The translations under genes and the position numbers were made by a program. A DNA stretch of 41,345 nucleotides from a virus, in IMG/VR virus record IMGVR_UViG_3300021475_000383, positions 1 through 41,345 of that record; one strand, 5' to 3'. This document shows positions 3,685 to 35,247 of the stretch, piece by piece; the first letter of the stretch is position 1; each line of letters starts with the position of its first letter. The notes below the pieces were generated by a model. It made no database searches. It saw only the letters and a program-made list of their open reading frames with translations, and was not told the DNA's origin.

Positions 3685-3703
3685 AGGTTTCTTTGGCAAT
3701 CGG

Positions 3704-3732
3704 GGCGGCCGCTGACTAGGACCAGCGCCGCC
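3704..3732. terminator. GC hairpin without T run
   Basis: Arms GGCGGCCGCTG and CAGCGCCGCC enclose an eight-base loop, giving ten pairs with one bulged C. No T tract follows on the minus strand (CCGATTGCC). It sits in a 169-bp gap between two leftward genes. It could be a weak terminator, an attenuator or a processing site. Confidence 0.35.
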
Positions 3733-3853
3733 CCATGTGGCTCGCCCCGGCGGTTGCGGCAAAGCACCGCTTTGTTGGAGCGAGATCGACGGCGACGGTT
3801 CGTCGATACTGAGAAGTTTGCCCCGGCCCGATCAGCCCATAGTATGCCATGGT

Positions 3854-4123
3854 TTAATCCGGTGGGCCTCCCAGAATTTCGAACGGTTCAACCATCTGTG
3901 ACGGGTCGGTTCCGAAGCGGAAAAATCGCTGCAGAGGATCGGGTTCGTCCAGAAATTCAATTTCGATCATATGCAACCGGTGCTCTGCCATGGCGGTCGC
4001 GTGCTCCTCGGCTAACGTGGGCAGGAGATTCTCCAGCGCGGCCTCGTCGACCATTACCACCGTGTCTTCGAAGAGCAGGGTCCCGGCGGCGAACCCGCGG
4101 ATCGCGATGCGCATCGGCGCCAT
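3854..4123 (-). CDS. Small acidic protein of unknown function
   Basis: Encodes 89 residues, strongly acidic, with strands at the start (MRIAIRGFAAGTLLFEDTVVMV), then a helix (AALENLLPTLAEEHATAMAEH) and HMIEIEFLDEPDP. The ATG at 4123 lies a few bases after the TAA of the upstream gene. An ATG three codons further in is an alternative start. It may be a protein-protein adaptor. No family recognised. Confidence 0.6.
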   Translation of the reverse strand: MAPMRIAIRGFAAGTLLFEDTVVMVDEAALENLLPTLAEEHATAMAEHRLHMIEIEFLDEPDPLQRFFRFGTDPSQMVEPFEILGGPPD

Positions 4124-4129
4124 ATGGTT

Positions 4130-4570
4130 TTACGTTCGCCGCGCCAGCGCGCCGAGGATTCCGGCAAGCCCCGAAACCTCCGCCCCGGCCACGAGCATCC
4201 AGTCTTCGCGCACGCCGACGGCTCCGGGGTGCTGCCACGCCGCCGCGCCGATATCGTCTTTCGCCTGCACCCAGAACACATCGCGCGCCAGTTCTTCGAG
4301 CGCGGCATACCGGCACGCTTGATTTCGCAGTTCGACGGCCTGCTCTTCGGAGTCGGCCTTTTGGCTGTCGAGCACGGCCTGTTTCGACGCAACATCGTAA
4401 TTGTTCGCCAGCGCCCACATTTTCTTCAACGCCTCGTTGTGGATAGTGCCCAGCGGCTTCTCCGTGGCTTGCATCTTTTGAAGGCCGCGCTGCACGCGCC
4501 GGATGTCACTGTCGTTTACTGTTTCGAAACCGCTGCGCAGTTCCGCAATTACCGTCAAAATTTCAATCAC
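4130..4570 (-). CDS. Helical protein of unknown function, coiled-coil-like
   Basis: Encodes 146 residues with a GTG start seven bases after AGGAGG, which settles the start. Residues about 15-95 are helical and charged (RRVQRGLQKMQATEK, SKQAVLDSQKADSEEQAVELRNQACR). The end is more hydrophobic (EVSGLAGILGALARR), possibly a membrane-touching or amphipathic helix. It could be structural or regulatory; no family is recognised. Confidence 0.6.
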   Translation of the reverse strand: MIEILTVIAELRSGFETVNDSDIRRVQRGLQKMQATEKPLGTIHNEALKKMWALANNYDVASKQAVLDSQKADSEEQAVELRNQACRYAALEELARDVFWVQAKDDIGAAAWQHPGAVGVREDWMLVAGAEVSGLAGILGALARRT

Positions 4571-4588
4571 GTATAAACCTCCTAGTCT

Positions 4589-4879
4589 TCACAAAGGATC
4601 CACACCAAACTCGACCGCCAGGGAAAGCCAGGCGTCGATTGTAGGCTGGTTCAGAAGCACGCGCGCCAATTCGCGCAGCCGCGCCAGTTCCGCGCGGCCC
4701 TCTTCCGACATATGCGGGTTCTGATCCCAGACCGGCGACTCGATCCATTGGCGCAGGTAGGCCGCGATCAGCGCGATGTCCCGCGACGACAACCGATAGC
4801 CCTGCAGGTAGCGCTTCACCGCCGGGACCAACTCGCCGCCGGTTTCATCCATCCAATAGCCGGGACCGGCCGCCATCAC
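4589..4879 (-). CDS. Small helical protein of unknown function
   Basis: Encodes 96 residues. The GTG at 4879 overlaps the upstream TGA, with an ATG next to it as alternative start. It resembles common phage helper proteins of the type ...SSRDIALIAAYLRQWIESP.W... followed by a Leu/Arg-rich helix (ELARLRELARVLL). This YLRQWI pattern is recurrent in phage small proteins of unknown role. Confidence 0.65.
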   Translation of the reverse strand: MMAAGPGYWMDETGGELVPAVKRYLQGYRLSSRDIALIAAYLRQWIESPVWDQNPHMSEEGRAELARLRELARVLLNQPTIDAWLSLAVEFGVDPL

Positions 4880-5469
4880 CTTCCTACCTCCATCTCGCGC
4901 AAGGCGCGGATCAGTTTGCCGACGGGCGCACGCCGCCGTTTCTCATCGGTCCAGTCGGGCGCGCGCCGCCACGCATCGTCAACCACGCGCTGGTACTCGA
5001 TCACGGTGCCGGTCTCGTTGGTGGCCTTCCAGGTCGACGCGCCTCGGTACGGTCCCACCAGCGCCGGGCCGGTCTGGATGCCGTGTTGCAGCCGCTCAAC
5101 CTGCTGGATGCTGAAGTCGCCGAAGCAGCCCTCGGCCACGGCGACCAGGTGCCCGTCCCATCTGCCTGGCGCGTTCGGTGTGCCGCAGCCGATGCCGACC
5201 GACCAGGAGCCGTCGCCCCAGGTTGTCGGCTTGGTCGGATCATCGACGTCGTCGAAGTTAACAGCCACATGCCTTGCGAAGGGCGCATTGTAAGCCACCA
5301 CGCGCACCGCGACCGGCTCCGATTGGATGCCGAAATGCGCCGCCACCTCGATGGCGACGCGCGTGGCGAAGATGCAGAGGTCGCGCCGCTGCCAGCCCTC
5401 CTCCAGCATCGGCGCAAGCAGCGGTGCCAGACCGTCGAAGACGGCGCGGGCGCACAGGGTTGCCATCAT
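4876..5469 (-). CDS. Papain/transglutaminase-like fold protein (candidate cysteine peptidase)
   Basis: Encodes 197 residues. The N-terminal half has a helix starting at Cys32 (RDLCIFATRVAIEVAAHFGI), then a strand (VAVRVVAYN), a loop, DGHLVAV with His107 and GDFSIQQ with Asp118. Cys, then His before a strand, then Asp near the next strand is the triad order of transglutaminase-like cysteine peptidases. Uncharacterised bacterial relatives share the pattern start-helix Cys / GHLV / D-x-S-x-x-Q. A peptidase, amidase or inactive binding role is inferred. It is coupled to both neighbours. Phage use could be processing of a host or phage protein. Confidence 0.55.
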   Translation of the reverse strand: MMATLCARAVFDGLAPLLAPMLEEGWQRRDLCIFATRVAIEVAAHFGIQSEPVAVRVVAYNAPFARHVAVNFDDVDDPTKPTTWGDGSWSVGIGCGTPNAPGRWDGHLVAVAEGCFGDFSIQQVERLQHGIQTGPALVGPYRGASTWKATNETGTVIEYQRVVDDAWRRAPDWTDEKRRRAPVGKLIRALREMEVGR

Positions 5470-5750: not shown

Positions 5751-6085
5751 TATTGGACCCCCGGCCTCTTCATCAGCCGCTCTATCGCGGCCCGCGTCTG
5801 GCCCTGGACTGTGGGATCTTTGAAATCGTCGAACTCGATGACGGCATCGCAGAACTTGCGCAGCCGCGCCGGGATGATCCACGCCCCGCGCTTCACCAGC
5901 ACGATGAGCGGCTTGTCGAAAAACATCGCCGCGCCCAATTCCATGCACAGCTTCACGTCGGGCTGGCCGTCCACGATGCTCACGGCGAACCGCGACCCGC
6001 GCATCTTCGGGAACAGATCCACCTCAGCCCCGGCTTGCAACCCGCGAAAGAACTCCTCGATCTCTTCTTCTGTTGGCTTGCTCAT
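5750..6085 (-). CDS. Possible nucleoside-deoxyribosyltransferase/TIR-like Rossmann protein
   Basis: Encodes 111 residues. After a helix (EEEIEEFFRGLQAG) it has SRFAVSIVDGQPDVKLCMELGAAMFFDKPLIVLV and ARLRKFCDAVIEFDD. A strand, then a helix carrying D-x-K-x-C-x-E-LG, then DKP-(I/V)-x-V-L is the layout of small nucleoside 2-deoxyribosyltransferase-like or TIR-like folds that read out nucleotides. The usual N-terminal strand with its loop is hard to place, so catalysis is uncertain. The ATG overlaps the upstream stop by four bases. Confidence 0.5.
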   Translation of the reverse strand: MSKPTEEEIEEFFRGLQAGAEVDLFPKMRGSRFAVSIVDGQPDVKLCMELGAAMFFDKPLIVLVKRGAWIIPARLRKFCDAVIEFDDFKDPTVQGQTRAAIERLMKRPGVQ

Positions 6086-11073: not shown

Positions 11074-11487
11074 TCATTTCCTCTTTTCCGCGCCCTTAAG
11101 CTTCTTCGCGTCTGCCGCCTTTTGAACCCGCTGGTCGAGCTCTGCATCCGCAGTCACCAGGCGCCCTGGCGGCATGGCGCGCGCTGGCGGCTCCCGGCGT
11201 TCGGATGGAATGCCGTCCGGGTAAATCGAACTATAGGCTTCGATGCCGTCCTTGGGTTTCCAGCGCGAACAGTAGAGCGCGCGGATTTCCGCCACGCCTG
11301 GCCATCGGGCGTAGAGGCGCAGCGCCCGGTTCACCAACCAATCCAACTGCTCCTCGGTGTCGACCATGTCGACGAAGACGGAGACGAGCGCGGCGCGGAT
11401 GTCCGGGTCGCCAGGGAAAAATGCCATCAACGCCATCTTGGCGACGGCGGCGGCGGCGGTTTCGGGAGTGAGCGGTGTGAGGTTCAT
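11074..11487 (-). CDS. Possible replication accessory protein (helicase-loader position)
   Basis: Encodes 137 residues. The first 85 match a pattern common in phages: LTPETAAAAVAKMALMAFFP.D...RAALVSVFVDMV ... LDWLVNRALRLYARWPGVAEIRALYCSRWKPKDGI. These proteins usually follow an initiator gene. The C-terminal end is basic (KKLKGAEKRK). The start overlaps the initiator stop by four bases. The position right after an O-like initiator, as with lambda P, suggests helicase loading, but I see no shared sequence with P or DnaC; the role is inferred. Confidence 0.55.
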   Translation of the reverse strand: MNLTPLTPETAAAAVAKMALMAFFPGDPDIRAALVSVFVDMVDTEEQLDWLVNRALRLYARWPGVAEIRALYCSRWKPKDGIEAYSSIYPDGIPSERREPPARAMPPGRLVTADAELDQRVQKAADAKKLKGAEKRK

Positions 11488-11963
11488 CTGCCTGCCTTTC
11501 TCCGTTCTTCGCGGTAGTAGCTTTCCAAAACCTCGCTCTGAACGGATTTTCTGGGGATTGATTTTTGCGGAGTGCGCGAAGCGCCTGGTTCCTTTATGTA
11601 AGGTTCATATAAAGGATACGGCGCGTCCAGAAGCTCATTTTGAGCTATCTGACCCCCCACTTTTGAGCTATCTGATCGCTCATTTTGAGCTATCTGGATT
11701 TCATAGTTGCAACAGGTCTGCGTGCGCTTGATCGCGATGAATCCGAGTTTGCGCAACGCCGATAGTCCACGCTTGACGGTGGCCAGGCCGATGCCGAGTT
11801 CCTGCGCCAGCCTCTCCTGTTTCGGATTACACTGTCCGGTTCGCTTATTTCGGTGATCGAGTAGTTGCGCCAGCAGCAACTTCTCCGTGGCGGAAATCCG
11901 CTTATCTGCCGCGATCTCCTTGGAGACAACCAGAAAGGAATGGCGGTCCATGTGGGAAGTCAC
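11484..11963 (-). CDS. Replication initiator-like helix-turn-helix protein
   Basis: Encodes 159 residues. A winged helix fills residues about 25-85: SATEKLLLAQLLDHRNKRTGQ, then QERLAQELGIGLATVKRGLSAL, then KLGFIAIKRT. This is the DNA-binding layout of phage replisome organisers and O-type initiators. The C-terminal half is polar and contains a peptide repeat (QIAQNE twice) created by DNA iterons. The GTG at 11963 overlaps the stop of a 27-codon upstream frame (GTGA); the ATG at 11951 is the alternative. It probably binds the repeats inside its own gene and recruits helicase with its downstream neighbour. Confidence 0.65.
   Translation of the reverse strand: MTSHMDRHSFLVVSKEIAADKRISATEKLLLAQLLDHRNKRTGQCNPKQERLAQELGIGLATVKRGLSALRKLGFIAIKRTQTCCNYEIQIAQNERSDSSKVGGQIAQNELLDAPYPLYEPYIKEPGASRTPQKSIPRKSVQSEVLESYYREERRKAGR
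11591..11615. other. AT-rich inverted repeat beside the iterons
   Basis: CCTTTAT at 11591-11597 pairs with ATAAAGG at 11609-11615 around an 11-base loop. It is one of the few A+T-rich stretches in the area and lies 21 bases from the first iteron, as a DNA unwinding element would. It lies within the initiator gene. Confidence 0.5.
11636..11697. repeat. Three direct iterons inside the initiator gene (candidate origin)
   Basis: The core TTTTGAGCTATCTG occurs at 11638, 11661 and 11683, with periods of 23 and 22 bases, about two helical turns. The first and third copies are in the same reading frame of the gene, while the middle copy is in another frame. The DNA sequence rather than the peptide is therefore what is kept. 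The layout resembles the lambda origin, whose iterons lie inside gene O. Confidence 0.75.
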
Positions 11964-13383: not shown

Positions 13384-15024
13384 TCATGCCACCTTGCCCC
13401 GAATGACAAAGGCGAAATGGTCAACTAGGCCACCGGCAACTTGACCATTTCCGCTTCCCGATGCGGATGCCGCCGGGGCTAACTCGATCCGGCAGTACAC
13501 CGTAAAGTCCCTGCCGTCGGTTTCCACCTTCTCCACCGTCTTGAGAACAAACTTGCGGCGCTCGTCGAAGGTCTTCAATCCGTCCAGGCCTTCTTTCAGT
13601 TGTACGCACGTGTCCACGATGCGGTCCCGGCTGGGCAGCGCCACCACGGCGGCCTCGCGCGCTTCGACCTCAAGCGTCTGCCGTTCGGCCTCGATCTCCA
13701 GCAGCTGCTGGGCGGCCTTGTCGCGGGTCCGCTGCGGCACGTTGGCGAAGACGATGGCTTCCGTGCGGTCATAGCGTTCCTTGAGGCGGGCCAGCTGCGT
13801 TTCGACGCTCACGGCATCCGGTTTGGCGCGCGTGATCTCGGCGTGGTATTCCTTCGCCAGCCGGTAAGCGGTTTCCGGTTGGCGGATCCGGTCGCGCACC
13901 CCGTCGATCACCAGATCCTCGATCAGGGCCGCGCGCACCTGGGTCGAGTCGATGCACAGTTTCTCGCGGGTGCGATTGTCGTACATATTGCTGCAGGAGA
14001 ACGCCCCTTTTTTGCGCAACACCCAGCGGCGTTTGCAGCGCTGGCCTGACGGCAAAGTGCAGGCGCAATGGATCTTGCCGGAAAGCGGGCTGCTCGTCGA
14101 CGGGCGGCCCGCGCGGTCCTTGTGCCGCGCCAGCATCACCTGGACCTTATCGAACAGCGCCTTGTCGATCAGCGCCGGAACTTTCAACGTCACCGACTCC
14201 GGTCTTAAATCCTCGCCCTTCACGGTGGTCACGTACTGGCCAGTGTATATCCGATTGCGCAGGACCTTGAGCACCGTGAAATTCGACCAGAGCTTGCCGT
14301 GTTTGGTCAGAATCCCCGCCCGGTTCAAGGCGATCTGAATTCGGAACGCCGACCCGTGCTCCGCGTAAGCCTCGAAGATCAGGCGCTTCACCACGTCGGC
14401 TTCGAACGGGTGCGGCTCGATGTAGCCTTTGCGGACCGCCCCGCCCGTCAGACGGCCGCCGGGATGGTACAGGTAGCCGTAGGTGTGGCACTCGCCGCCG
14501 TTGACGTGGCCCTCCTTCGCCTTCTGCAATCGGCCCTTGGAAGTGCGCTGGATGATCAACTCGGCTTCGTATTCCGCGAAGGTGGCGAACTGGTTGTACA
14601 TCATCCGGCCTTGCGGCGAATCGTCAAACTGCTGCAAGGCGAACGCCAGCGCGGCGCCTTCCCCCTTCAGCATCCTGCGAAACTCGATGGCACCGACCAC
14701 GTCGCGCGCGACCCGGTCCAGGCACAGCGCCAGCACCCCGCCGACTTGTTTGGTGGAAACCAATTCCATCAACCGTTGGTAGTCGGGACGATCAAAGTTC
14801 TTGCCGGTTTTTTTGTCGATCAGGATGAAACCCTCGGGCACGTTGACGCCGATGTCCGAAGCCAGCCGCAGCAGGGTCGCGCGCTGCGAAGCCGGGGAAT
14901 ACATTTCACCTTGATCCTTGGTGCTTACCCGAATGTACATCAGCCACGGCAGGCTTACCTGCTTCCACGTCAGCTTCATCGCCTCCTGCCGGGGCGTCAA
15001 TTGTCTGATTGCCGCTGCGCTCAC
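13384..15024 (-). CDS. Large serine recombinase (phage integrase)
   Basis: Encodes 546 residues, normal for the family. The resolvase domain begins with YIRVSTKDQ, where Ser34 is the expected nucleophile; LCLDRVARD is the conserved arginine helix, and a long helix with YEAELIIQRTSKGRLQKA follows. The recombinase domain has ALNRAGILTKHGKLWS and VLKVLRNRIYTGQYV. A zinc ribbon (CACTLPSGQRCKRR ... CSNMYDN) precedes a coiled coil (LARLKERYDRTEA ... LLEIEAERQTLEVEAREA). It should insert and excise the phage at att sites. The GTG start overlaps the upstream stop. It lies in mid-window with phage genes on both sides. Confidence 0.95.
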   Translation of the reverse strand: MSAAAIRQLTPRQEAMKLTWKQVSLPWLMYIRVSTKDQGEMYSPASQRATLLRLASDIGVNVPEGFILIDKKTGKNFDRPDYQRLMELVSTKQVGGVLALCLDRVARDVVGAIEFRRMLKGEGAALAFALQQFDDSPQGRMMYNQFATFAEYEAELIIQRTSKGRLQKAKEGHVNGGECHTYGYLYHPGGRLTGGAVRKGYIEPHPFEADVVKRLIFEAYAEHGSAFRIQIALNRAGILTKHGKLWSNFTVLKVLRNRIYTGQYVTTVKGEDLRPESVTLKVPALIDKALFDKVQVMLARHKDRAGRPSTSSPLSGKIHCACTLPSGQRCKRRWVLRKKGAFSCSNMYDNRTREKLCIDSTQVRAALIEDLVIDGVRDRIRQPETAYRLAKEYHAEITRAKPDAVSVETQLARLKERYDRTEAIVFANVPQRTRDKAAQQLLEIEAERQTLEVEAREAAVVALPSRDRIVDTCVQLKEGLDGLKTFDERRKFVLKTVEKVETDGRDFTVYCRIELAPAASASGSGNGQVAGGLVDHFAFVIRGKVA

Positions 15025-16738: not shown

Positions 16739-17316
16739 CGTTTTCCCTCTGAAGCAATCCGAGCGGTATCGTGGCCGCTGCCCCAACGCCAGATGGCTTC
16801 CATCACTAACCGCCGAGGGACGAAGACGCACTCGGAATGCCAGCCCCTGGTCCCTGGCGTGTGCTGCTCCCATGCGCCAAAGCGCTCGCGCCATGCTTCC
16901 CAGCAACGTTGAAACACGCAGCACAAAGGTGGAAACGGAACGATGAAGAAACGGCCGGTATCTTTCCAATACCAGAGAATGTAATCCGCCGTCTTCGCCC
17001 CATCCCGCGTCCAGCCAATGATGTCCTTTTCTTTCACGCTGAACGTTTCCAACGCAAGATCGTCGCTGAAGTCGGGCGCCTGGACGCTGTAATCCGTGTC
17101 CCGCAGTTTCAGGTCGACCGCGAGGGTCTTCAATCCATAACGTTCGATGTAGTAGTCGGTGCCGTCCTTGTCATTCTGCTTCAGTGCGCGGCGCACCGTC
17201 TTGAAATTCGGAATCCGATCCGCCAGGAACGGCAGCACGCTGTCCGCGTGAGGCGCGTGGCCGTTGCTGAAGTCCAACCGCTCTTGAAATCCATACGACC
17301 GGGGGGGCTTCTTCAT
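16735..17316 (-). CDS. Possible PD-(D/E)XK nuclease-like protein
   Basis: Encodes 193 residues from the ATG at 17316, which overlaps the methyltransferase stop by four bases. The pattern GTDYYIERYG, LAVDLKLRDTDYS, DLALETFSVKEKDIIGW, KTADYILWYWKDTGRFFIVP reads like a restriction-endonuclease-fold core: Asp in the first strand pair, Asp-x-Lys in the next, a Glu strand, then a Tyr/Trp-rich strand. A Vsr- or restriction-like enzyme paired with the methyltransferase is possible; the catalytic set cannot be fixed by eye. The C-terminal part holds a CC pair (PPLCCVFQRC). Confidence 0.5.
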   Translation of the reverse strand: MKKPPRSYGFQERLDFSNGHAPHADSVLPFLADRIPNFKTVRRALKQNDKDGTDYYIERYGLKTLAVDLKLRDTDYSVQAPDFSDDLALETFSVKEKDIIGWTRDGAKTADYILWYWKDTGRFFIVPFPPLCCVFQRCWEAWRERFGAWEQHTPGTRGWHSECVFVPRRLVMEAIWRWGSGHDTARIASEGKR

Positions 17317-18356
17317 GTTGCGCCCCCGTCGCTTTCCGCGCCCCAGACCTTCCATCCTTTGCGAGGGCCGCGCGCGAACATTTCCAGCCACGGGCCGGGA
17401 GAGCAGCGTTCTACAAGTTGATAGAATTCGGCGGGCTTGCCGGAATGCTCCGATGTTCGCTTCGCCGCGAACCACGTCCCCGCGTCGCGCACCAGCAGGT
17501 CCAACGATCCGCGCACTCCAAACAGAACGTGCTCAGTGCTGCCGCGAAAATAATTTCCCATGCCGATGCTTGGCTTGCACCACGTCAGCGCGGTGACGTA
17601 GCGGAACCCCCACGCATCGAGCAAGTCGAACCCTTTGGGCAACGACCGATTTGTGATCCACAAATACAGGTGCGCGTCGTCGTCGGCCAACTCCTCGACA
17701 GGCAGCGCCGCGATCTCCTCCACCGGCATGGTCGCGTATTCGGGTCGTCCCCTTCCAAATTGATCCACGTCGCCTTCATCGCCCCAGTCCCACGGCGGGT
17801 CGATGACGATGGTTGGATAAGATTCGCCGACCAGGCTTTCGGCATATTCGGTGTCTTCCACAATGCGCCGGTTGTGCGCGCGTTTCTTCTCGCGGTGTTG
17901 CTCCTTCAGAACGCGCAGCAGGCCTGCAGTCGTCAACTCATCGTGTTCCTCTTCAACGCCCCGCTCGATGTAGCTCTCGAACAATGGTCCCGGCACCCGC
18001 GCGATCTGCTGCCAGCGGTGGGACTGAGTCTTCTCGACGCCGAGATCGGGAAGCTTCACGGTTGCGGGTTGCAACTGTGATTTTCGATCTCCGCCGCGCC
18101 CACTGTCCCGTTCCCCCTTCCGCTCCATGTCGATCAACATTTCCCCGGCACGGCGCTCGGCGCGCAGCCGCACCTCCGCAGCTTCCTGGGCCATGTGGCG
18201 AGAGTGCTGCGCTGCCTTAAAGAACTTCTCGGCACCGCTGGCGATCCCACGCACATGAAGAACCTCGTCCAGCGTCTCGGCATTCTTCAGCAAGGCCCGC
18301 AGTCGCGCCACCAATGCGGGGGTTGGATCTGGACCGAGTTTGGCTGGTGCTCTCAT
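17313..18356 (-). CDS. MT-A70 family N6-adenine DNA methyltransferase with helical N-terminal domain
   Basis: Encodes 347 residues. Residues about 170-345 are the MT-A70 domain: TIVIDPPW with DPPW at 186-189 (catalytic motif), then LPVEELADDDAHLYLWITNR, GFRYVTALTWCKPSIGMGNYFR and TSEHSGKPAEFYQLVERCSPG, the family's conserved blocks. The N-terminal part is helical (AAEVRLRAERRAGEMLIDMERKG, GRGGDRKS, SQLSHRWQQIARVP-like), a ParB/KorB-like module often fused to phage MT-A70 enzymes. It transfers methyl from AdoMet to adenine in DNA. Protection from host restriction, or methylation-based regulation, is the likely use. Confidence 0.9.
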   Translation of the reverse strand: MRAPAKLGPDPTPALVARLRALLKNAETLDEVLHVRGIASGAEKFFKAAQHSRHMAQEAAEVRLRAERRAGEMLIDMERKGERDSGRGGDRKSQLQPATVKLPDLGVEKTQSHRWQQIARVPGPLFESYIERGVEEEHDELTTAGLLRVLKEQHREKKRAHNRRIVEDTEYAESLVGESYPTIVIDPPWDWGDEGDVDQFGRGRPEYATMPVEEIAALPVEELADDDAHLYLWITNRSLPKGFDLLDAWGFRYVTALTWCKPSIGMGNYFRGSTEHVLFGVRGSLDLLVRDAGTWFAAKRTSEHSGKPAEFYQLVERCSPGPWLEMFARGPRKGWKVWGAESDGGAT

Positions 18357-18801: not shown

Positions 18802-19461
18802 TTATTTCGGCGCGGGCGCTGGCGCCTCGGTCGGCGGCACCGGCTTACTCAGATCGGGCGGCGCGGGAATCCACGCCCAGATCGGAGGGAGAGGTTTGCA
18901 CCCCTGGCCGAAGCCGGGATCGACGGGCACCCAGTTGCCGCCGCCGGGAGGCTTCACTCCAGGCGCGCCAGCGCCAGGCAGTCCCTGGTCCGGTCCCGGA
19001 GGTGCGCCGGGTTTCGGCGGCACAGGTCCACCACCAACAGTCGGCGGCGGCGTTTCGGGCTGGCCCCAACCCGGATCGACAGGAATAAATCCCCACAGTG
19101 GCGGCAGACCGAATCCTGGGTCAACCGGAGCCCAATGGCCTGGAATCCACGGATGCGGCGGCGCGCCGCCCATCGGCGGTCGCTGGCCGGGGTGCGGCGG
19201 AACGATCGGCAAACCCGGAGGTTTGTTGCCGGGATGGCCAGGTGCGATCGGTAATCCGTGCGAAGGGTATCCGCCGCCTGGCCTTCCGAAGCCGGGATCG
19301 ACAGGGCCGCCTGGCCTTCCGAAGCCGGGATCGACTGGACCCCATCCGGGGCGGCCATAGCCGGGATCGACCGGCCCTCCTGGCTGGCCAAATCCTGGGT
19401 CTATGGGACCCGCCGGGCCGACTTCACGAAGCCAGCCCACATACAATTTCAAGTCACTCAT
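18802..19461 (-). CDS. Proline/glycine-rich repeat protein
   Basis: Encodes 219 residues from the ATG at 19461, preceded by AAAGGAG. After a short start (MSDLKLYVGWLREVG) it consists of repeated PVDPGFGRPG units (about nine PVDPG/PIDPG-like copies), then proline runs (PGQRPPMGGAPPHP) and an end of KPVPPTEAPAPAPK. It has no signal peptide or membrane segment. Such disordered, beta-turn-rich chains act as spacers or multivalent binders. It is odd among recombination genes and overlaps the upstream stop by 8 bases. Function unknown. Confidence 0.65.
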   Translation of the reverse strand: MSDLKLYVGWLREVGPAGPIDPGFGQPGGPVDPGYGRPGWGPVDPGFGRPGGPVDPGFGRPGGGYPSHGLPIAPGHPGNKPPGLPIVPPHPGQRPPMGGAPPHPWIPGHWAPVDPGFGLPPLWGFIPVDPGWGQPETPPPTVGGGPVPPKPGAPPGPDQGLPGAGAPGVKPPGGGNWVPVDPGFGQGCKPLPPIWAWIPAPPDLSKPVPPTEAPAPAPK

Positions 19462-20954: not shown

Positions 20955-21935
20955 TTACGCGGCGTCGGCTTCCTCGCCGCGCAGATCATCATGCTCGAAG
21001 CGGATCTTGCGATAGCCCGGCTTCGGGCGCGTGTAGAATTGCTCCAACTCCTCGCGCTTATCTTTGTCTTTCACGTACTCGTTGAGAAGGCCGCGCGCCA
21101 TGCTTTCCCAATCCGTCACCGTCGAATCCTTGATGCGCCGCCAGGTGAATTTACCATTCGGCCATACCAACCCCTCTTTGTCCGCAATGGCGGCCTTGAT
21201 CAAGTTCTCCAGTTTCTCGCGATGCTCCTTCAGCGCGGCCTGTTCGAAGCGCACCTGGGCGTACTCGGTGAGCATCAGGATCTCTGCCTCGGTGGCATAG
21301 CGCAGATCGGGCCGCTTGTGGCGCGGAAACGTCGTCTGCAGCCAGCGCGCGGCGGCGGGGCTGCTGCCCATCTCGGGCCGGTCGTCGCCCAGGATATAGC
21401 GCTGGTGCCATTCCGAGATCCGCAGCAGCATCTGGCGCTCTGCGACGGCGTCCAGGCGCTCGACCGGAATGATCCGAAGCTCGTCGCCGACCATAGCCGC
21501 GATGTCCCACACCGGGTAGTCCATGGCCGCCATGTAATAGTAAGCCTGGACCTGGATGTATTCCGGCACTTCACCCGCCATCGTGCCCCAATTGCGCCGC
21601 TGGTCCCAGGCCACCAGCTTGGCATCCACGCCGCGCCGCTCGCCGCGCACCAGGCCGTCCGGGGTGTAGATCATCCATGGACGCTCTTTGTCCTGCAGCG
21701 TCTGGTTGAAGTACTCCACATCGCGCCGGGTTCGATGAGCGTAGAACTTGAGGATGGCCTCTTCAAAAAAACGGCCGGCGATCATCCGCTCCGTTGGCTC
21801 CTGGTCGGCGACGGCGTCTTTCTTGCGCGCCCAGACGCTGAACTCATCGAGATAGGGATGGCACCCGAAGAGCGCAGCGGCCTCGCTGCCGCCGATGCCC
21901 ATGCGCCGCACGTTTGGATCGATGCTCATTGCCAT
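20955..21935 (-). CDS. YqaJ/lambda-exonuclease family recombination nuclease
   Basis: Encodes 326 residues. It starts with the family signature GIGGSEAAALFG, then GRFFEEAILKFY, TPDGLVRG (Asp93), GVDAKLVAW (Asp104, Lys106) and EVPEYIQVQAYYYM, i.e. the PD-(D/E)XK active-site blocks in the right order. The usual second acidic residue is Asp here rather than Glu. The last third is helical (YAQVRFEQAALKEHREKLENLIKAAIAD), a common extension. It degrades 5' ends of duplex DNA to give single strands for the RecT-like partner. Its start overlaps the upstream gene by 10 bases. Confidence 0.9.
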   Translation of the reverse strand: MAMSIDPNVRRMGIGGSEAAALFGCHPYLDEFSVWARKKDAVADQEPTERMIAGRFFEEAILKFYAHRTRRDVEYFNQTLQDKERPWMIYTPDGLVRGERRGVDAKLVAWDQRRNWGTMAGEVPEYIQVQAYYYMAAMDYPVWDIAAMVGDELRIIPVERLDAVAERQMLLRISEWHQRYILGDDRPEMGSSPAAARWLQTTFPRHKRPDLRYATEAEILMLTEYAQVRFEQAALKEHREKLENLIKAAIADKEGLVWPNGKFTWRRIKDSTVTDWESMARGLLNEYVKDKDKREELEQFYTRPKPGYRKIRFEHDDLRGEEADAA

Positions 21936-23414: not shown

Positions 23415-26400
23415 TTATGGTGCCGTGGTCAGCGTGGTGCTGAAGATGTGAAGCGTGCCGTTCGAGAACCGCACCCAGAAGGTTGCATAGTTCCCGGCCT
23501 CATTGACGGTGAAGCCGCAAGTGTTGTTCGGCATGTTCGGGTTGCTGGTGTAGACGGGGCAGTTCAGAGCCGGAACCTGTAGCGCGGCCGCACCCCCGTA
23601 AATGGTCCCGCCGACGATGAGATTTGCGCCTGCGTTGACCGCGCCCCCGGAGGGATTGAGATACAACGTCGAGCCGCCGCTGTTGCTCAAACTCTGGATC
23701 ACCCCGTTGAAGGTCACGTTCCCGTCGTAGTAATAGCCGAGCGAGACTTGGTAGCCTGCGTTGTTCCCCTGCTCGCAGACAGTAAGCTGACTTGCGCCTG
23801 CAAAGGTGGTTTGGTTCGCGCTGACAATCGAGAGGGCGGAGCGAGGCGCTGACGTGCCGATGCCGATATTCCCGCCGAGCGGATTTAGCACCAATTGCCG
23901 CGCGATGGCACCATTGAAGTCTCTGGCTTGCATCCACATTGCCAGAGAGCCGCTTGGATAGCCGCCAATTTCCAAACCGATATTTACGTTGTTGCCGACA
24001 AACGCCGCGATGCCAGCCGGAGCCGTATAGGTCAAGGTTGGAGGCTGCAAGGCGTTGAGGACCATCAGCGAGTCTACTGGGGCAAGGGCTGGTATTCCCG
24101 GCCCCACCATAACAGTGCCGCCTGGGACGATGGCCATGCGTGGATTTGGCGTCCCAGACAGGCCAGTGCGGAACCAGATGTCTCCGTTGCTATCCGTGCC
24201 TATACCTGCCCAGTTCCCAGCGCTGTTGTTGTACAGAATGACACCGGCATCAGTTGGCGCTGGCGCAGCGAGGGGGCCGACGGCGGTTCCAAAAGTGCTT
24301 CCCTTGGCGCTAGTGACAAAGGGGCCGGTAGCGCTGACTGTCCCGGCTACGTTGATGCTCCCCGTTACGGTGACACCCCCTCCCGTCAGGATCCGCATCC
24401 GCTCTGCCCAAGCCCCGCCATAAGTAGAAAACACAAAATCATTTGTATCAGCACCTCCCGGTACACCTGTCCCCATTGCAACCGCATTGGTTCCAGCAGC
24501 ATTCCAGAATTGCTGATCAGTCGGAACGCCGGTTCCGGCTTGAAAGTACATAAGACCGGCAGATCCAGCGAATCGCGCTATAGTCGCAGTCGAACTACTT
24601 ACATCTAAGCGATACGCTGGCGTCACTCCAATGCCGACGTTGCCCGCTGCCGTGATTCGCATCCGCTCCGTAGGCGTTCCCGCGCTCCAGGTGGTGAACG
24701 TCATCGCACCCGAATTGATTGCGCCGTCGAGCAATCCGAAGATCGAGGCGACTCGCTTTTCCGGTCCCGTGTTGGCGTAGTTGGCGAAAAGAATAGCGCC
24801 CACCGCAAACCCCAGCGTCGTAGTGTTGCCGCAAGTGGTGATTTCCCCGCGCAGGGCACTCACCGTCGTCGGACCCACGATCAGATGGGAAGCCACGTTG
24901 CCATCCGGCGTGACCGTCGCATCGTTCCCCACGCCGATCATCCCCGCGCTGTAGAGGGTGAAGGTCGCGGCGTTAATGTTGCTCGTCCACGGAGTCTGCG
25001 CCGCCGCTGCCGGTGCCCCGGTAATCTTCGACCACGCCAGCGAGGTGATCCAGGCCGGGTCGGCATAGCCCTGCGTCTGATCCACCGCGTGAGTCACCTG
25101 AGCCGCCGTGTAATCGCCCGCCACTGCAACCACCGCGCCCGTGCGCGTGAAGACGCTAGTGACCGGCGAGGAAGCCGACGTGTATGCCGTGGTCTGCGTG
25201 GTGCCGTCAGGGAAGGTGAAGCCGCCCGATCCGCTCTTGACCCCGCCGTTCACCTGGAGCATGTGCGTGCCATCATCCGTCACGGTGCCGATAAGCACGT
25301 GGCCCGCGACGAGGCGCATCACCTCCGATGCGCTGGCGAAGAGAGCTAGCTTAGTGCTCGACTCCACGGTCGTCAGGCCAGCCAGCGCGGGCGTAGCGGC
25401 ATAGCCGGTGCCGTAGGATCGCATGTGCAGGTAGTCGGCAATATCGTTGACCACGGACATCGATGCAAGTGCCGGCGCAGCGTTGATAATCGTCTTCACG
25501 CCCTCCTCGGTGGCCGATGGCTGTATGAGGATTCGGGCCGTCGCGGCGGCGGAAGTGATATTCACGCCGATGCTCTTGACGAAATTCAGGCTCCAGAGCG
25601 CGGCGTTGATATCGCTCTGCCACGGCGTCTGCGATCCCGCGCCGCCGCCCGCTGGCGTCGTCCACGCCATGCCGAGCAACTGGGAGTTGTCCGCTGTGAG
25701 CACCTGGCCGTTTGCACCCACGGGAAGCGCCTGCGGGGGTGCCGACGCGCCGCGCACGATCAGATCGCCCTTGGCTGTGGTCGGGTCCACCAAACCGCCG
25801 CCAGAACCGGTGCCGCTCGAAGCTACCGTGAGATTAATCCGGTTGTCGGTGGGGTCGTCCGCAATCGTCATCGCGACACCAGCGCCATTCACAAAGTTGA
25901 TGGCGTGGCGCGTGCCGATATTGGTCCCGCCGAGGAGCACCTGGATTTGCTGGTTGGTCGTATCGGAGACCACGGAGAGCGTCCGATCCGCACTCAGATT
26001 GCCGCCGCCGGTCAGCCCGGTGCTGGTGTTGATGTTCCGCGTGTTGGCGACTGCGTTGGTCACCATCGCCACCGTATAATCGCCCGTCTGGGCCACGACC
26101 GCGCCGCTCCTGCCGAACACGGTGGTCACTGCAACCGTGCCCCACCTCATTCCCGCCGCTTGCGTGCTGTCGGCGGTCAGGATCGATCCGTCCGCTCCGA
26201 CCGGCAGGCGCGTGGTGGTGGCGGCGTGTACGATGAGGTCGCCCGCCGCCAGGGTCGGATCGAGCATGAAGGCCGGCGGATTGGTGATCTTCGCCCACGG
26301 CAGGGTGGCGATCCACGGCGGGTTGTTGTAGCTGATCGTGGAGTCGACAGCATTGGTGACCTGGGATGCTGAATAGTCGCCACTCGCAGCCACTACCGCG

Positions 26401-27221
26401 CCGGTGCGCGTGAACACGCTGGTCACTGCGCCCGCGCCCGAAGCCGCCGCCCACTTCACGCCGAGGGCTTGAGTCGAATCGGCAGTGAGCACCTGTCCAT
26501 CCGCGCCCACGGCGAGACGATTAGGCGCGGCCAAGCCACGGACGATCACGTCGCCTTTGGTGGTGGTCGGATCGACCATCCCGCCAGCGCCGCCGGTCGA
26601 TGAGATGGTGACATCGACGCGGTTGCTGCCGGGGTTGTCCACGACGCCCACTGTTACGTTGGCCCCGTTGACGAAGTTAATCGCGTGGCGGGTGCCCGTG
26701 AGGGCGGCGCCTGCGAGCACCTGAACCTGCTGGTTGACCGAATCGGGCACGGCCGCGAGATTCAGGTCGGCGGTGAGAGCGCCGCCGCCAGACAGGCCCA
26801 GGCCCGTATTGACTCTCCGGGTCGACAGCACCCCCGTCGCGCCGGTAACGTCGGCGGGCGTGAGCGTGATCGCGCCGGTCCTGCCGAAGACGCTGGTAAC
26901 CAGAGCGGTGAGCGTGATGTCGGAAGTCAGCGGGCCGCCGCCCGACATACCAACCCCAGCGATGACCTGGCGCGCCTGGGGAACATAGAAAGCGGCGTAA
27001 TCCGTCGCCAGCGCCACCACATCGCCGCTGCGTGTAAAGACGCTGGTGACCGCCGAGCCAGTGCCAAGGCCCGAGACTCCCTCCAGCACCACGTTGGAAA
27101 GTTTGTAGCCGCCACCGTTCACATCGCCGCCCCAGGCCACATCGTCCTGGTGCAACTTGTTTAAATCGTCCGAGTGCAGGCGGTCGGACGGCTGATAGTT
27201 CCCCGGACTCTGCCAAGGCAT
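23415..27221 (-). CDS. Long modular tail fibre protein
   Basis: Encodes 1268 residues. It begins with a short attachment-like segment (SPGNYQPSDRLHSDDLNKLHQDD). Three kinds of module then repeat: VTSVFxRxGAVV..GDY..xQV (five copies), P(T/L)xxGDxIV...LPVGADGQVLTADSTQ (three) and NQQxQVL.G..xGTRHAINFVNGA (two). The last third holds ERMRI-type blocks (TERMRITAAGNVGIGVTP), typical of fibre shafts, and ends NYATFWVRFSNGTLHIF, with no S74 chaperone domain visible. It should bind the host surface as a trimer. AAAGGAG precedes the ATG. Confidence 0.8.
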   Translation of the reverse strand: MPWQSPGNYQPSDRLHSDDLNKLHQDDVAWGGDVNGGGYKLSNVVLEGVSGLGTGSAVTSVFTRSGDVVALATDYAAFYVPQARQVIAGVGMSGGGPLTSDITLTALVTSVFGRTGAITLTPADVTGATGVLSTRRVNTGLGLSGGGALTADLNLAAVPDSVNQQVQVLAGAALTGTRHAINFVNGANVTVGVVDNPGSNRVDVTISSTGGAGGMVDPTTTKGDVIVRGLAAPNRLAVGADGQVLTADSTQALGVKWAAASGAGAVTSVFTRTGAVVAASGDYSASQVTNAVDSTISYNNPPWIATLPWAKITNPPAFMLDPTLAAGDLIVHAATTTRLPVGADGSILTADSTQAAGMRWGTVAVTTVFGRSGAVVAQTGDYTVAMVTNAVANTRNINTSTGLTGGGNLSADRTLSVVSDTTNQQIQVLLGGTNIGTRHAINFVNGAGVAMTIADDPTDNRINLTVASSGTGSGGGLVDPTTAKGDLIVRGASAPPQALPVGANGQVLTADNSQLLGMAWTTPAGGGAGSQTPWQSDINAALWSLNFVKSIGVNITSAAATARILIQPSATEEGVKTIINAAPALASMSVVNDIADYLHMRSYGTGYAATPALAGLTTVESSTKLALFASASEVMRLVAGHVLIGTVTDDGTHMLQVNGGVKSGSGGFTFPDGTTQTTAYTSASSPVTSVFTRTGAVVAVAGDYTAAQVTHAVDQTQGYADPAWITSLAWSKITGAPAAAAQTPWTSNINAATFTLYSAGMIGVGNDATVTPDGNVASHLIVGPTTVSALRGEITTCGNTTTLGFAVGAILFANYANTGPEKRVASIFGLLDGAINSGAMTFTTWSAGTPTERMRITAAGNVGIGVTPAYRLDVSSSTATIARFAGSAGLMYFQAGTGVPTDQQFWNAAGTNAVAMGTGVPGGADTNDFVFSTYGGAWAERMRILTGGGVTVTGSINVAGTVSATGPFVTSAKGSTFGTAVGPLAAPAPTDAGVILYNNSAGNWAGIGTDSNGDIWFRTGLSGTPNPRMAIVPGGTVMVGPGIPALAPVDSLMVLNALQPPTLTYTAPAGIAAFVGNNVNIGLEIGGYPSGSLAMWMQARDFNGAIARQLVLNPLGGNIGIGTSAPRSALSIVSANQTTFAGASQLTVCEQGNNAGYQVSLGYYYDGNVTFNGVIQSLSNSGGSTLYLNPSGGAVNAGANLIVGGTIYGGAAALQVPALNCPVYTSNPNMPNNTCGFTVNEAGNYATFWVRFSNGTLHIFSTTLTTAP

Positions 27222-27225
27222 GAAG

Positions 27226-27582
27226 TTACTCCTTTACGATGTCGCTTGCCGGTCCATTCACGCGCTCCACCACTTTGAGGCCGTCGGCTGGCAGCGGCGA
27301 TGCAGGCGCCGGCGGCAGGTTCAGTTGCGGCATGGGTTCCGGCAGCGTCACGATCAGCGCACCGTTCTGCGCGCGCGCGTTCTGAAACTGCTCTACGCCG
27401 CGCGTCGATAACGCCTGGCGAATGAAGGACCGCTGCCGCTCCGCAGCGTTGTCCAGATTCTTGCGCGCCTGTTCCATATCGAGCGAGAGCGCACCGACCG
27501 CCGCCAGCGCCTGGGTGCGCTCCTGGTCGATCTGCATGAGCATCGCGTTTTCCTTCTGATCCAGGTTGTAAGTCTTTTCCAT
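27226..27582 (-). CDS. Small coiled-coil protein between the fibre genes
   Basis: Encodes 118 residues from the ATG at 27582, eight bases after AAGGAG. Residues about 5-60 are a coiled coil (ENAMLMQIDQERTQALAAVGALSLDMEQARKNLDNAAERQRSFIRQAL). The end is proline-rich (LPEPMPQLNLPPAPASPLP). Position and size would suit a fibre connector or assembly chaperone, or a small virion protein. No family recognised. Confidence 0.65.
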   Translation of the reverse strand: MEKTYNLDQKENAMLMQIDQERTQALAAVGALSLDMEQARKNLDNAAERQRSFIRQALSTRGVEQFQNARAQNGALIVTLPEPMPQLNLPPAPASPLPADGLKVVERVNGPASDIVKE

Positions 27583-27595
27583 AGGTGAAGCTCCT

Positions 27596-30500
27596 TTATG
27601 CCACGTTGGTAATGATCCCGCCGCAGACGGTGACATGGCGTCCATCGGCGGTAGCGAAAGTGGAAGTGGCTCCCGACGCCGCCCCGGTGGATTGCGGCCA
27701 GCCCCGCGACACGTTTGAGATGCCGAACTCGGTGCCGTAAATCTGGCCGTAGCTTGGGTTCGTGCATTGCACGCCGCCCTGCCAGATGTAGTTATTGTTG
27801 ATCAGGGTGTTGCCGTTGACCTGGAGAAAGCTCAGGTTCACGGTGTTGGCGGAAAAGTTGCCGGTGACATTCGCGGAGTTGGCCTGCACGTTGGCAGTGA
27901 TCGTTACGGCGTTGTGGAACGTCGTGCTGCCGCTGACATCCATGTTGCCTCGGCAAGTGACGCCGCCGCACCCGATGCCGTAGGTGCCGACGTCCACGCC
28001 GAATCCTACAAACTGATTGTTGCTGTTAACCGCCAGGCCTCCGTTGGCGTAGATTTGATACCCGAAGACCTGGCGGCTGCTGTCGATCACCGTGGTGCCG
28101 TTGATCTGGACGGCGTTGCAGTTCACCGATTGAGTGACGCCAATCGAACCGCAGGCGATGGGTCCGTTGACCACGGTCAGCGAGCCGCACCTGATCCCGT
28201 AGGCGGTCGAGGTGGTGGTCACATCCACGCCCGCCCCATTGAATGCCCCGTTGGTGTTGATGACTGCCGCCGCGAAGCCTGGCACGTAATACTGCGAGCC
28301 TGAAATATTGCCGACGTTGGAGAGCGGGAAGCCGGCACCGTTGATCGGGCCGGTCCAGGGCGACTGGTTCACGCCGCTGACAATAGGCTTGCCCTTCCAG
28401 GCGCCAGTGGCGTCGATCACCGGCCCGTAGCCCTGCACGTTGTAGGCGAGCGCGTTGATGGGTTGGTCCGTGCCGCTGATGGGCGCGCCCTTGAGAACGC
28501 CCTTGATGGAAACGTTGCCGCTGGTGTCGATCTGGAAGAGGATATTCCCGGCGGCGTCCTGCAGGATCATTTGCGGGTTGCCCTGGTTCGTTCCGCCCGA
28601 TGCCAGATACACCGTCCGGTTGTACGGCGCGATAGGTGAGAACATCGCGAAGTCGCCCCAGAAGGCCGATGGGACGTCGCTGCCGGAAGATTGGCCGTTG
28701 AAGGTAACCAGGGAAAGGATCACGGGGTACGTCGGATAGCCAGGCGTCGTCTGCGGCCCGCGCAGCACCATACCGCGATTCAGGAACGTGGCTCCGAAAT
28801 TGTTGCCAACGTTGTCCCACTCGTAGATGTGGATGCCGGGAAACTGCCACTGGCCGCCGCTCAATCCGCCGGCCATCCAGACCGAATTGCCGAACTCCAG
28901 TTTGTACTCAGCGTTCGAAGGTGGCCCGCTCGCCGCCGCGTAGTCGATCGAGAGCTTATTGATGTTGCGCATCTGGAACTGACTGCCGAGCGGGTTGGTG
29001 GTGTCGGGAGTGATCAGGATGTTCCAGTTTGAAATATTAGATCCGCCGATTCCGAGTTGCGTGAACCATGCGCCAGCCGTCAGCTGCGGCGGCGGGCTGG
29101 GGCCGACACCGTCTCCCAAGGATCCCGAGGGCACGGTGAGCGACGCGCCGATGCGCCCCATCTCGTAGCCGTGCGAATCGCGCACCGAGATGTACGGGTA
29201 TTGCGAGCCCTGCGCCGCCGCGATGCCGCCGACCTCGATGATGCCCTGGTTGTCGATGAACAGCGGCGCGGTGAGCGGGCTCGTCCCGCCGACCCAGAGT
29301 TGTCCGAACCACGCGCCCCAGAGCGGCGCGCCGCTGCCTTGCCCCGGCTGCTGCTCTCCCAGCCAGGCGCGCAGCACGCCCGAGGAATTCTCGACGGCGA
29401 TCTGGCCATTGACCGAGCCGCCGAAGGACGCCAGCGGCGACCCGCCGACGATCAACGTCTTGCCCACCTGGACCACTTGCGCGCTGATGTTGTCAGCCGT
29501 CATTCCGGCGGCGGTCCACGAGAACTGGTCCTCGTTGAACCACCCCGACCGCGCCGGGATGATGGCGCCTGCGGTGGGCGTGAAGGTAGAGCCGATCTTG
29601 GGCGTCGTCCCGATCACCAGTTGGTTCTTGTTCCCCTGCGGATCGTCGCTCACCAGATAGAAATCGACCGGCACGGCCGCGCCGATGTTGCCGAAGGAAG
29701 GCATCGCAGGGGTTTGAAACGACGTCGCGTTGCTGGGCACCGACCAGAAGGTGGGTTTGGTGGCATCGCCGTTGACCACCATCGCCACTTGCGCGCTTCC
29801 GAACTGGTTGCCGCTGGGATTAGTCCAGGGACCGACCTGGAAGCTCACCATCCCCACGCCATCGGCAGAGAGCGTCTGCGTGGCCGTGGCCGCGGCCCCG
29901 GTGTTGATGGTCACAAGCGGCGCGTGCTCCGTCCCGCTGCCGGGACTCCCAGGCGTGGGCGGTCCCACGGTCCACTGCACGGTGGGCGAATGGAATCCCG
30001 CCTGGCCGAACTTCGCCGGGTCATCCGCCAGCACCCCGTTGTTGTCGACCGAGATCGCGGCCACCGTCCAGATCTCATCCTGCGCCGGGATGGCGTCGAC
30101 GTCCACGATGTAGGCTTTGTCGGTGTTGGCCTGCTGGCCGCTCAGGTCCTGCGGGAAAGGCGAGAGCGGAGCCGTGCCGGTGACCTTCACCAGGTAGAGA
30201 TGCACGCCCGCGTAGCGCACGTTGTCACCCGAAGCGGGAAGGCTCCAGGCGAACGTCGCTTGGGCAACCATCGAACCGTCCAGGAGCCAGATGACCTTCT
30301 GGCCGCGGATGGAGAAACCGGTCACGTCGGGCGCGCTGGGCACGCCTGGCACGATGGCCTCGGCGTAGGGCGTGGTGCCCTCGACCAGCGAGTTGACGTG
30401 ATGGCCCAGAGGCTGGCTGTCGTCCTCGGAGCAGAAGTAGCAGCGGAACTTGCCGCCGCCAGCGCCGGGATGGTAGGCCGGGGAATCGTACCCGTTGGCC

Positions 30501-31279
30501 GATTGGACCGGCACCGAGATACCGGTGTCCTTGCCTGGGAAGACCGGATTCCCGGCGGGATCGTAGTAGACGAAAAGGATCCGCACGCCGCCGAAACCGT
30601 TCATCCCGGCGGGCACAGCGACCGATGGATCGGGCGGTGTGTAGGTGAAGGTGAGGTTGTATTGCGGATCCGTTCGGTTGTAATCCGTGTTCACCAAGAC
30701 CGACGGATTGGTCACCAGCAGCGCCCACTCCTGGCCGCTCTCGCCCTGGCCGCGCCCCAGCGGGATGTTCACCAGGATCGACGGCGTCGGGCTCGCCTCG
30801 GTGGCGCGCACCAGCCGGGGCTGCGAGCTTGGCCCGTAGGCCGCGAGATAGATTCGCACGTTGCGCGCCGTCTTGTAAGTCTGCCCCGGCTTGCTGCCCA
30901 TGGTGGAGTCGAGCATCACGACCGCCGTGCCGCCGCTGGCCGCCGGGTCCTCCAGGGAATCATTGACGAACACGGGTGCCCAGGTGCCCGACATCTGCGC
31001 GGTGCCGTCGAGCGGGACCGAAGCGCCGTCCATCGGCCCGTTGGCTCCGCTCGAAATATCGGGGTCCTCCAGGTAGATTGCCGCGCCCAGGAAATTTAGC
31101 GCAGTGGCGCTCGCCGACGCGAACCATGCCACGTCGACCTCGACCTGGTGATCGCTGCGGAAGATCACCTCGGCCGGGGCGTCGATGGTGACATCGGGCG
31201 CAGGCAGGCCGCCGCCGGGACCGCCGCCCGTGCCGCCCGTCGGCGATCCCTTCTCGTAGATCCAGGTGCCTGCTGCCAT
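27596..31279 (-). CDS. Large tail fibre or tip-associated protein
   Basis: Encodes 1227 residues. A Gly-rich start (GSPTGGTGGGPGGG) leads to several fibronectin-III-like sandwiches in the first 550 residues (e.g. PDVTGFSIRGQKVIWLLDGS, ATFAWSLPASGDNVRYAGVHLYLVKV). A middle part follows with GRIGASLTVPSG-type blocks. The last 250 residues are beta-helix-like with NGxTVID, GNMDVSGSTTFHNAV and GNFSANTVNL repeats. It directly follows the hub gene, like lambda Stf or other side-fibre genes. It probably extends from the tail tip and takes part in adsorption. AGGA stands before the ATG. Confidence 0.75.
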   Translation of the reverse strand: MAAGTWIYEKGSPTGGTGGGPGGGLPAPDVTIDAPAEVIFRSDHQVEVDVAWFASASATALNFLGAAIYLEDPDISSGANGPMDGASVPLDGTAQMSGTWAPVFVNDSLEDPAASGGTAVVMLDSTMGSKPGQTYKTARNVRIYLAAYGPSSQPRLVRATEASPTPSILVNIPLGRGQGESGQEWALLVTNPSVLVNTDYNRTDPQYNLTFTYTPPDPSVAVPAGMNGFGGVRILFVYYDPAGNPVFPGKDTGISVPVQSANGYDSPAYHPGAGGGKFRCYFCSEDDSQPLGHHVNSLVEGTTPYAEAIVPGVPSAPDVTGFSIRGQKVIWLLDGSMVAQATFAWSLPASGDNVRYAGVHLYLVKVTGTAPLSPFPQDLSGQQANTDKAYIVDVDAIPAQDEIWTVAAISVDNNGVLADDPAKFGQAGFHSPTVQWTVGPPTPGSPGSGTEHAPLVTINTGAAATATQTLSADGVGMVSFQVGPWTNPSGNQFGSAQVAMVVNGDATKPTFWSVPSNATSFQTPAMPSFGNIGAAVPVDFYLVSDDPQGNKNQLVIGTTPKIGSTFTPTAGAIIPARSGWFNEDQFSWTAAGMTADNISAQVVQVGKTLIVGGSPLASFGGSVNGQIAVENSSGVLRAWLGEQQPGQGSGAPLWGAWFGQLWVGGTSPLTAPLFIDNQGIIEVGGIAAAQGSQYPYISVRDSHGYEMGRIGASLTVPSGSLGDGVGPSPPPQLTAGAWFTQLGIGGSNISNWNILITPDTTNPLGSQFQMRNINKLSIDYAAASGPPSNAEYKLEFGNSVWMAGGLSGGQWQFPGIHIYEWDNVGNNFGATFLNRGMVLRGPQTTPGYPTYPVILSLVTFNGQSSGSDVPSAFWGDFAMFSPIAPYNRTVYLASGGTNQGNPQMILQDAAGNILFQIDTSGNVSIKGVLKGAPISGTDQPINALAYNVQGYGPVIDATGAWKGKPIVSGVNQSPWTGPINGAGFPLSNVGNISGSQYYVPGFAAAVINTNGAFNGAGVDVTTTSTAYGIRCGSLTVVNGPIACGSIGVTQSVNCNAVQINGTTVIDSSRQVFGYQIYANGGLAVNSNNQFVGFGVDVGTYGIGCGGVTCRGNMDVSGSTTFHNAVTITANVQANSANVTGNFSANTVNLSFLQVNGNTLINNNYIWQGGVQCTNPSYGQIYGTEFGISNVSRGWPQSTGAASGATSTFATADGRHVTVCGGIITNVA

Positions 31280-31283
31280 AGCT

Positions 31284-35246: not shown

Positions 35247-35247
35247 G

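Follow-up and report, generated by a model that had tools for sequence, protein, structure and literature searches.

A Probable Replication Origin Within the Initiator Gene of an Uncultured Phage

The gene at 11484-11963 in a 41,345-bp stretch of viral DNA (the window, analyzed at its full length) very probably codes for the replication initiator of the phage and also contains its origin. The location of an origin in the gene and the selection of its iterons as DNA are well supported by an ortholog, a codon-choice test, the position of repeats across the protein family, the fold of the protein, and named precedents. We infer binding, melting, helicase loading, and use of the origin. The features assigned are as follows.

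11484-11963, minus strand: putative gene for a 159-aa winged-helix replication initiator (Pfam HTH_36 and PHROG matches; ortholog L243)
11736-11900, minus strand: winged helix, residues 22-76, predicted DNA-binding domain (HTH_36 match; AlphaFold)
11678-11696, minus strand: iteron 1, CAGATAGCTCAAAATGAGC on the coding strand, a full near-palindrome that follows the winged-helix code after 39 bp
11661-11674, minus strand: iteron 2, CAGATAGCTCAAAA, off-frame and missing the second half of the palindrome
11633-11651, minus strand: iteron 3, CAGATAGCTCAAAATGAGC, a full near-palindrome
11586-11618, minus strand: AT-rich block behind the iterons, coding YPLYEPYIKEP, with G+C below the synonymous expectation; candidate DNA unwinding element
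11591-11615, no strand assigned: inverted repeat CCTTTAT (11591-11597) and ATAAAGG (11609-11615), present, not above chance, and not conserved
11074-11487, minus strand: next gene, 137 aa, overlapping the initiator stop codon by ATGA and conserved in contigs L241-L243

The initiator protein and its fold

The initiator gene starts with a GTG at 11963, and an in-frame ATG at 11951 begins the part that is conserved in L243. The product matches Pfam HTH_36 (PF13730) with an E value of 2.7e-14 and 53.1 bits (curated cut-off 25), and it matches three phage replication-initiator PHROG families: DnaD-like (2e-11), replication initiation (3.9e-11), and O-like (1e-10). These matches bear out the preliminary description, which had called the gene winged-helix and initiator-like. 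The best of them, PHROG 186 (named DnaD-like helicase loader), is covered only over the N-terminal third of its profile. A Pfam scan of the protein at E values up to 0.1 found neither a Phage_rep_O (PF04492) nor a RepA_N domain, and a direct search for relatives with the initiator or with the recombinase returned none.

AlphaFold predicted a confident winged helix at approximately residues 11-90, with a mean pLDDT of 88-97 in every block of residues 21-90. Residues ~91-140 were modeled as unstructured and with low confidence, and the C terminus was modeled as one helix, also with low confidence. The unstructured stretch is the one that the iterons and the AT-rich block encode, and they are thus predicted to code for a disordered linker behind the winged helix.

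In a structure search, the best coverage of the domain was obtained with 4pql, 4pt7, 5kbj, and 4pta (Z 9.6-10.8, 95-98 residues). The first three scored Z 9.9-10.8 over 97-98 residues, and 4pql gave Z 10.8 with an rmsd of 4.4 A over 98 residues, against scores of 9-10.7 for unrelated winged helices. We take 4pql and 5kbj to be RepA_N proteins. 4pta and 4pt7 are RepA_N proteins (PMC7145576), and a Rep-DNA complex is among the RepA_N matches. Scores close to these were reached over fewer residues by many unrelated winged helices, and the matches therefore support the fold and are not proof of kinship. The DnaD N-domain 2v79 was also in the structural list (Z 9.1); this domain itself does not bind DNA (PMC7145576).

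Repeats and AT-rich DNA behind the winged helix

A scan of the window found three exact copies of TTTTGAGCTATCTG on the plus strand, at 11638-11651, 11661-11674, and 11683-11696, with start-to-start spacings of 23 and 22 bp, as the preliminary description had reported. The window contains no further exact copy, and when up to 3 mismatches are allowed, the sole additional match in 41 kb is a 3-mismatch site at 38899. The outer copies share 19 identical bases (GCTCATTTTGAGCTATCTG; coding strand CAGATAGCTCAAAATGAGC), which on the coding strand form the near-palindrome AGCTCA-AAA-TGAGC; the middle copy has the first half of the palindrome, and the second half is absent. As had also been noted, the middle copy lies in a different frame from the outer two, the three being read as QIAQNE, SDSSK, and QIAQNE. 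The repeat score behind the winged helix is 19, and none of 500 shuffles reached it (maximum 12). The longest exact off-frame repeat is 15 bp, compared with a maximum of 11 bp when the protein was synonymously recoded 400 times with the window's own codon usage.

L243, the sole ortholog found, was reached through a relative of the downstream gene, and its initiator is 48% identical to that of the window over 155 residues. The QIAQNE peptides are gone from it. In the same place as the window iterons, L243 carries two off-frame 19-bp near-palindromes (GTGCCAAATTGACACTTCT and GTGCCAAGTTGGCACTTCT) with a spacing of 23 bp, which follow the winged helix after 47 bp (window: 39 bp) and whose repeat score was reached by none of 500 shuffles. 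The recognition helix has changed as well (GLATVKRG in the window versus RRTVIRK in L243). Because L243 holds off-frame repeats and the AT-rich block without a repeated peptide, the layout has been kept on the DNA while the sequence and the peptide changed. The preliminary description had held that selection acts on the DNA, and had named relatives that keep the peptide and lose the DNA repeat as evidence to the contrary. The off-frame repeat beyond the range of recoding argues for selection on DNA, and L243 is the opposite case, in which the peptide was lost and the repeats were kept.

These results also bear on a reading in which a tandem linker repeat was selected at the protein level and the DNA similarity is a by-product. 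Both outer copies do code QIAQNE, and their in-frame identity alone falls within the recoding range (19 versus a maximum of 20). The off-frame middle copy does not, however, L243 has dropped the peptide while retaining off-frame repeats, and AlphaFold gives no confident structure at the QIAQNE stretch. Selection of a peptide repeat is already contradicted by these observations, and we consider it extremely improbable.

A+T makes up 73% of the 30 bp at 11589-11618, the 99.96th percentile of the window. The G+C content of the AT-rich block is lower than synonymous choice predicts in both the window (P 0.0001) and L243 (P 0.0001), with the window's codon usage applied to both genes, whereas the winged-helix code has no comparable A+T codon bias (P 0.15). 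The stretch behind the block is likewise G+C-poor for its peptide, and the edge of the block is therefore not a sharp limit of the bias. The DNA coding LYEPY..EP is kept both as peptide and as DNA in the window and L243 (TATCCTTTATATGAACCTTACATAAAGGAACCA and CGGTCCTTATATGAACCTTACTTAATTGAACCT). The preliminary description had placed an AT-rich inverted repeat here. The A+T-richness is real and conserved; the inverted repeat CCTTTAT/ATAAAGG is present, but 7-bp inverted repeats are common (two in the gene, 0.57 expected), so that it does not exceed chance, and it is absent from L243.

Different initiators, those of L019, L029, L046, L048, and the window (11633-11696), share a double unit of 45 bp (15 codons) in which spacings of 22 and 23 bp alternate, as though pairs of iterons had multiplied through in-frame duplication. 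Tandem repeats are also found elsewhere in the window, at 357-544 (90-bp units, 95% alike) and at 19273-19335 (33-bp repeat, 1.9 units, 100% alike).

Repeats in other HTH_36 genes and the shared core

We surveyed the best HTH_36 genes from ~1,240 genomes in six phyla, picked blind to repeats. A strong repeat was present in the 300 bp that follow the winged helix in 38 of 115 genes, and two thirds had no strong repeat by the survey criterion. The same test gave 3/111, 1/107, and 0/107 in upstream flanks and 4/113 and 1/103 in downstream flanks, and the next 300 bp of the gene contained repeats in none of 62 cases. The repeats start 58-217 bp behind the domain (median 111), their spacings cluster at 21-24 and 44-46 bp, they are off-frame in 15 of the 38 genes, and A+T rises by 5-7 points over the 90 bp that follow them. 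Their sequences vary from gene to gene, and palindromes among them are mildly enriched (29% at a flank p of up to 0.1). The window protein has the traits of this group: a domain above the cut-off, repeats just behind it, and a match to initiator families.

The repeats might instead be operator sites by which the winged-helix protein controls transcription, rather than an origin. HTH_36 is a generic winged helix with a fold like that of many repressors, and palindromic sites would suit a repressor dimer. The sites, however, are internal to the gene and come after the winged-helix code, with none near the gene start; the upstream windows of HTH_36 genes seldom contain repeats, as the counts given above indicate; the adjoining AT-rich block is kept; and the protein matches phage replication-initiator families. 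We therefore regard an operator role as improbable and favor an origin.

Two loci carry repeats outside coding DNA. In L107, iteron-like repeats (TGTCAAAATATTGGACA and variants) lie in non-coding DNA just past the stop codon of a short HTH_36 ORF. L006 has an HTH_36-type initiator gene (3688-4881) with motif copies inside it and a second, intergenic array of four copies of the same motif at 5767-5856, 0.9 kb from the initiator gene. L006 looks like a two-site origin, and its intergenic array and the post-stop repeats of L107 point to DNA. The 24, 24, 31 spacing of L006 was found too in L076 (Cochleicola gelatinilyticus).

The arrangement in L006 raises the alternative that in-gene sites serve another replication-linked role, such as titration of the initiator or copy control, and that the firing origin lies elsewhere. 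Besides oriL, which lies in gene 38, SPP1 possesses another origin, oriR (PMC6316719). Against this, the window contains no second array of its motif, and we judge a firing origin elsewhere to be quite improbable for this phage; an origin within the gene is our preferred reading.

We also searched IMG/VR, blind to genes, for two-copy arrays of the core TCAAAATGAGC. Arrays were found in 43 contigs, compared with none for the same letters backwards. They lie mostly inside initiator-like genes, where the copies frequently occupy two or three frames, and 15 of 20 array genes scanned singly matched initiator families (10/10 viral, 5/10 from genomes). The annotated lambda iteron ATCCCTCAAAACGAGGGA agrees with the window iteron at 12 of 14 bases (lambda iteron 1; iteron cores CTCAAAACGAG against CTCAAAATGAG), whereas 2,000 random 22-mers from the window never reached 11.

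The core is not general in HTH_36 genes. Besides L209, which was picked by motif, an exact CTCAAAAYGAG was present in one gene (L112). With up to one mismatch, 10 sites remained in ~82 kb of gene region and 10 in 239 kb of flank. The shared core is thus real for a subset of initiators only, and may reflect descent or convergence. Two other patterns were rejected. For eight of nine viral matches to the paired pattern GAGCTATCTG, the translations read did not suggest an initiator array (some, for example, were Ser-Asp or QIAP peptide repeats), L006 being the sole relevant one, and the extended motif AGATAGCTCAWWWTGAGC alone matched mostly unrelated genes. A literature search with the motif string returned nothing on origins among the matches listed. 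Five viral contigs (L026, L039, L042, L051, and L053) carry three copies of GCTCAAAATGAGCG with spacings of 37 and 48 bp outside any obvious initiator gene.

A broader proposal is that winged-helix initiators have a DNA code in common, either ancient or evolved repeatedly. Arms that converge on an A-tract, with the core CTCAAAAYGAG, would then recur among phages of several bacterial phyla, in initiators of the lambda O, HTH_36, and DnaD-like types and in any frame that fits, and the arm sequence would co-vary with the recognition helix, as between the window and L243. We consider this unlikely, although far from negligible; if it were true, sequence could reveal the origin and the incompatibility type of an uncultured phage.

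Comparison with known origins and a proposed mechanism

In-gene origins are already known from phage lambda and the staphylococcal plasmid pSK41, and the window gene is probably a distant representative of this general type. The Rep protein of pSK41 binds four boxes located centrally within rep, and the stretch coded by ori is a dispensable linker (PMC5703833). Iterons of RepA_N systems are mostly semi-palindromes that converge on a poly-A tract (PMC7145576). The window gene resembles pSK41-type RepA_N genes in its winged-helix head, boxes within the gene, ori-coded linker, and semi-palindromic iterons around an A-tract, and RepA_N initiators gave the best structural coverage of its domain. 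The pPR9 Rep, whose head belongs to the same Pfam family as the window's HTH_36 domain (Pfam13730), supports autonomous replication (PMC5703833). The differences are that pSK41-type proteins have 319 aa and come from plasmids, whereas the window protein is a phage protein of 159 aa that has one predicted helix in place of a C-terminal domain and no RepA_N Pfam match.

In lambda, the minimal DNA for unwinding is two iterons and the AT-rich region (PMC7466680). The preliminary description saw the plan of the lambda O gene in the window, and the in-gene iterons and AT-rich region are indeed present: in both systems, iterons in several frames lie within the initiator gene (four in lambda, three in the window) and are followed by an AT-rich stretch, and the initiator gene has a short overlap with the next gene. 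This layout is not peculiar to lambda, as pSK41 and SPP1 have it too. In SPP1, direct repeats and an AT-rich element lie at oriL within gene 38, the gene for the origin-binding protein (PMC6316719), a likeness to the window in layout. The further claim that the window protein is unrelated to lambda O did not hold. Both match the O-like profiles phrog_345 and phrog_678 over the winged-helix region, and since these profiles are shared and the iterons agree at 12 of 14 bases, the window protein appears to be a distant relative of lambda O or, failing that, an initiator of the same kind. Lambda O, however, matches Phage_rep_O at 5.7e-36, whereas the window protein has no such match, and the C-terminal half of lambda O (299 aa), which contacts the P helicase loader, is replaced in the window by a low-confidence tail. 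By analogy, the window initiator would work like the pSK41, lambda, and SPP1 precedents, without being a Phage_rep_O or RepA_N member by Pfam.

In the mechanism that we propose, the winged helix would bind the iterons that follow its coding stretch; as 19-bp near-palindromes (GCTCA-AAA-TGAGC), these lie about two helical turns apart. Strain from the bound initiator would open the adjoining AT-rich block, after which the host helicase would be loaded, perhaps through the product of the overlapping downstream gene or through the C-terminal helix. The iterons and the block code a linker predicted to be disordered, and therefore the protein could tolerate the sequence that the DNA needs. GC skew, suggested earlier as a check on the origin, does not turn at 11.6 kb and gave no origin signal. 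The contig is possibly incomplete.

If the assignment is correct, ~480 bp constitute a candidate self-contained replicon from an uncultured phage. The window would also be a clean case of one DNA stretch serving as both linker code and origin, in which the ortholog has switched the sequence of the sites and kept the layout. As a general rule, off-frame repeats ~40-220 bp behind an HTH_36 domain could locate unannotated origins in many phages and prophages.

The 137-aa product of the downstream gene (11074-11487) is a possible replication partner by position alone. It belongs to no known family, and it is 57-64% identical to its homologues in L241, L242, and L243, where the upstream genes differ. 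In L243, one gene, which seems to resemble an HNH endonuclease, lies between the initiator gene and the 137-aa homologue. For the 137-aa protein as a possible G39P-like helicase loader, Pfam, PHROG, and PDB gave no support, and its structural model was poor; no P-like or other helicase loader was recognizable for the window phage. Elsewhere, the window codes for a large serine integrase (13384-15024), an MT-A70 methyltransferase (17313-18356), and a YqaJ/RecE-like exonuclease (20955-21935). Four long genes (1227-1360 aa) occupy 23415-39458, and the one at 35643-39458 has a sub-threshold tape-measure match.
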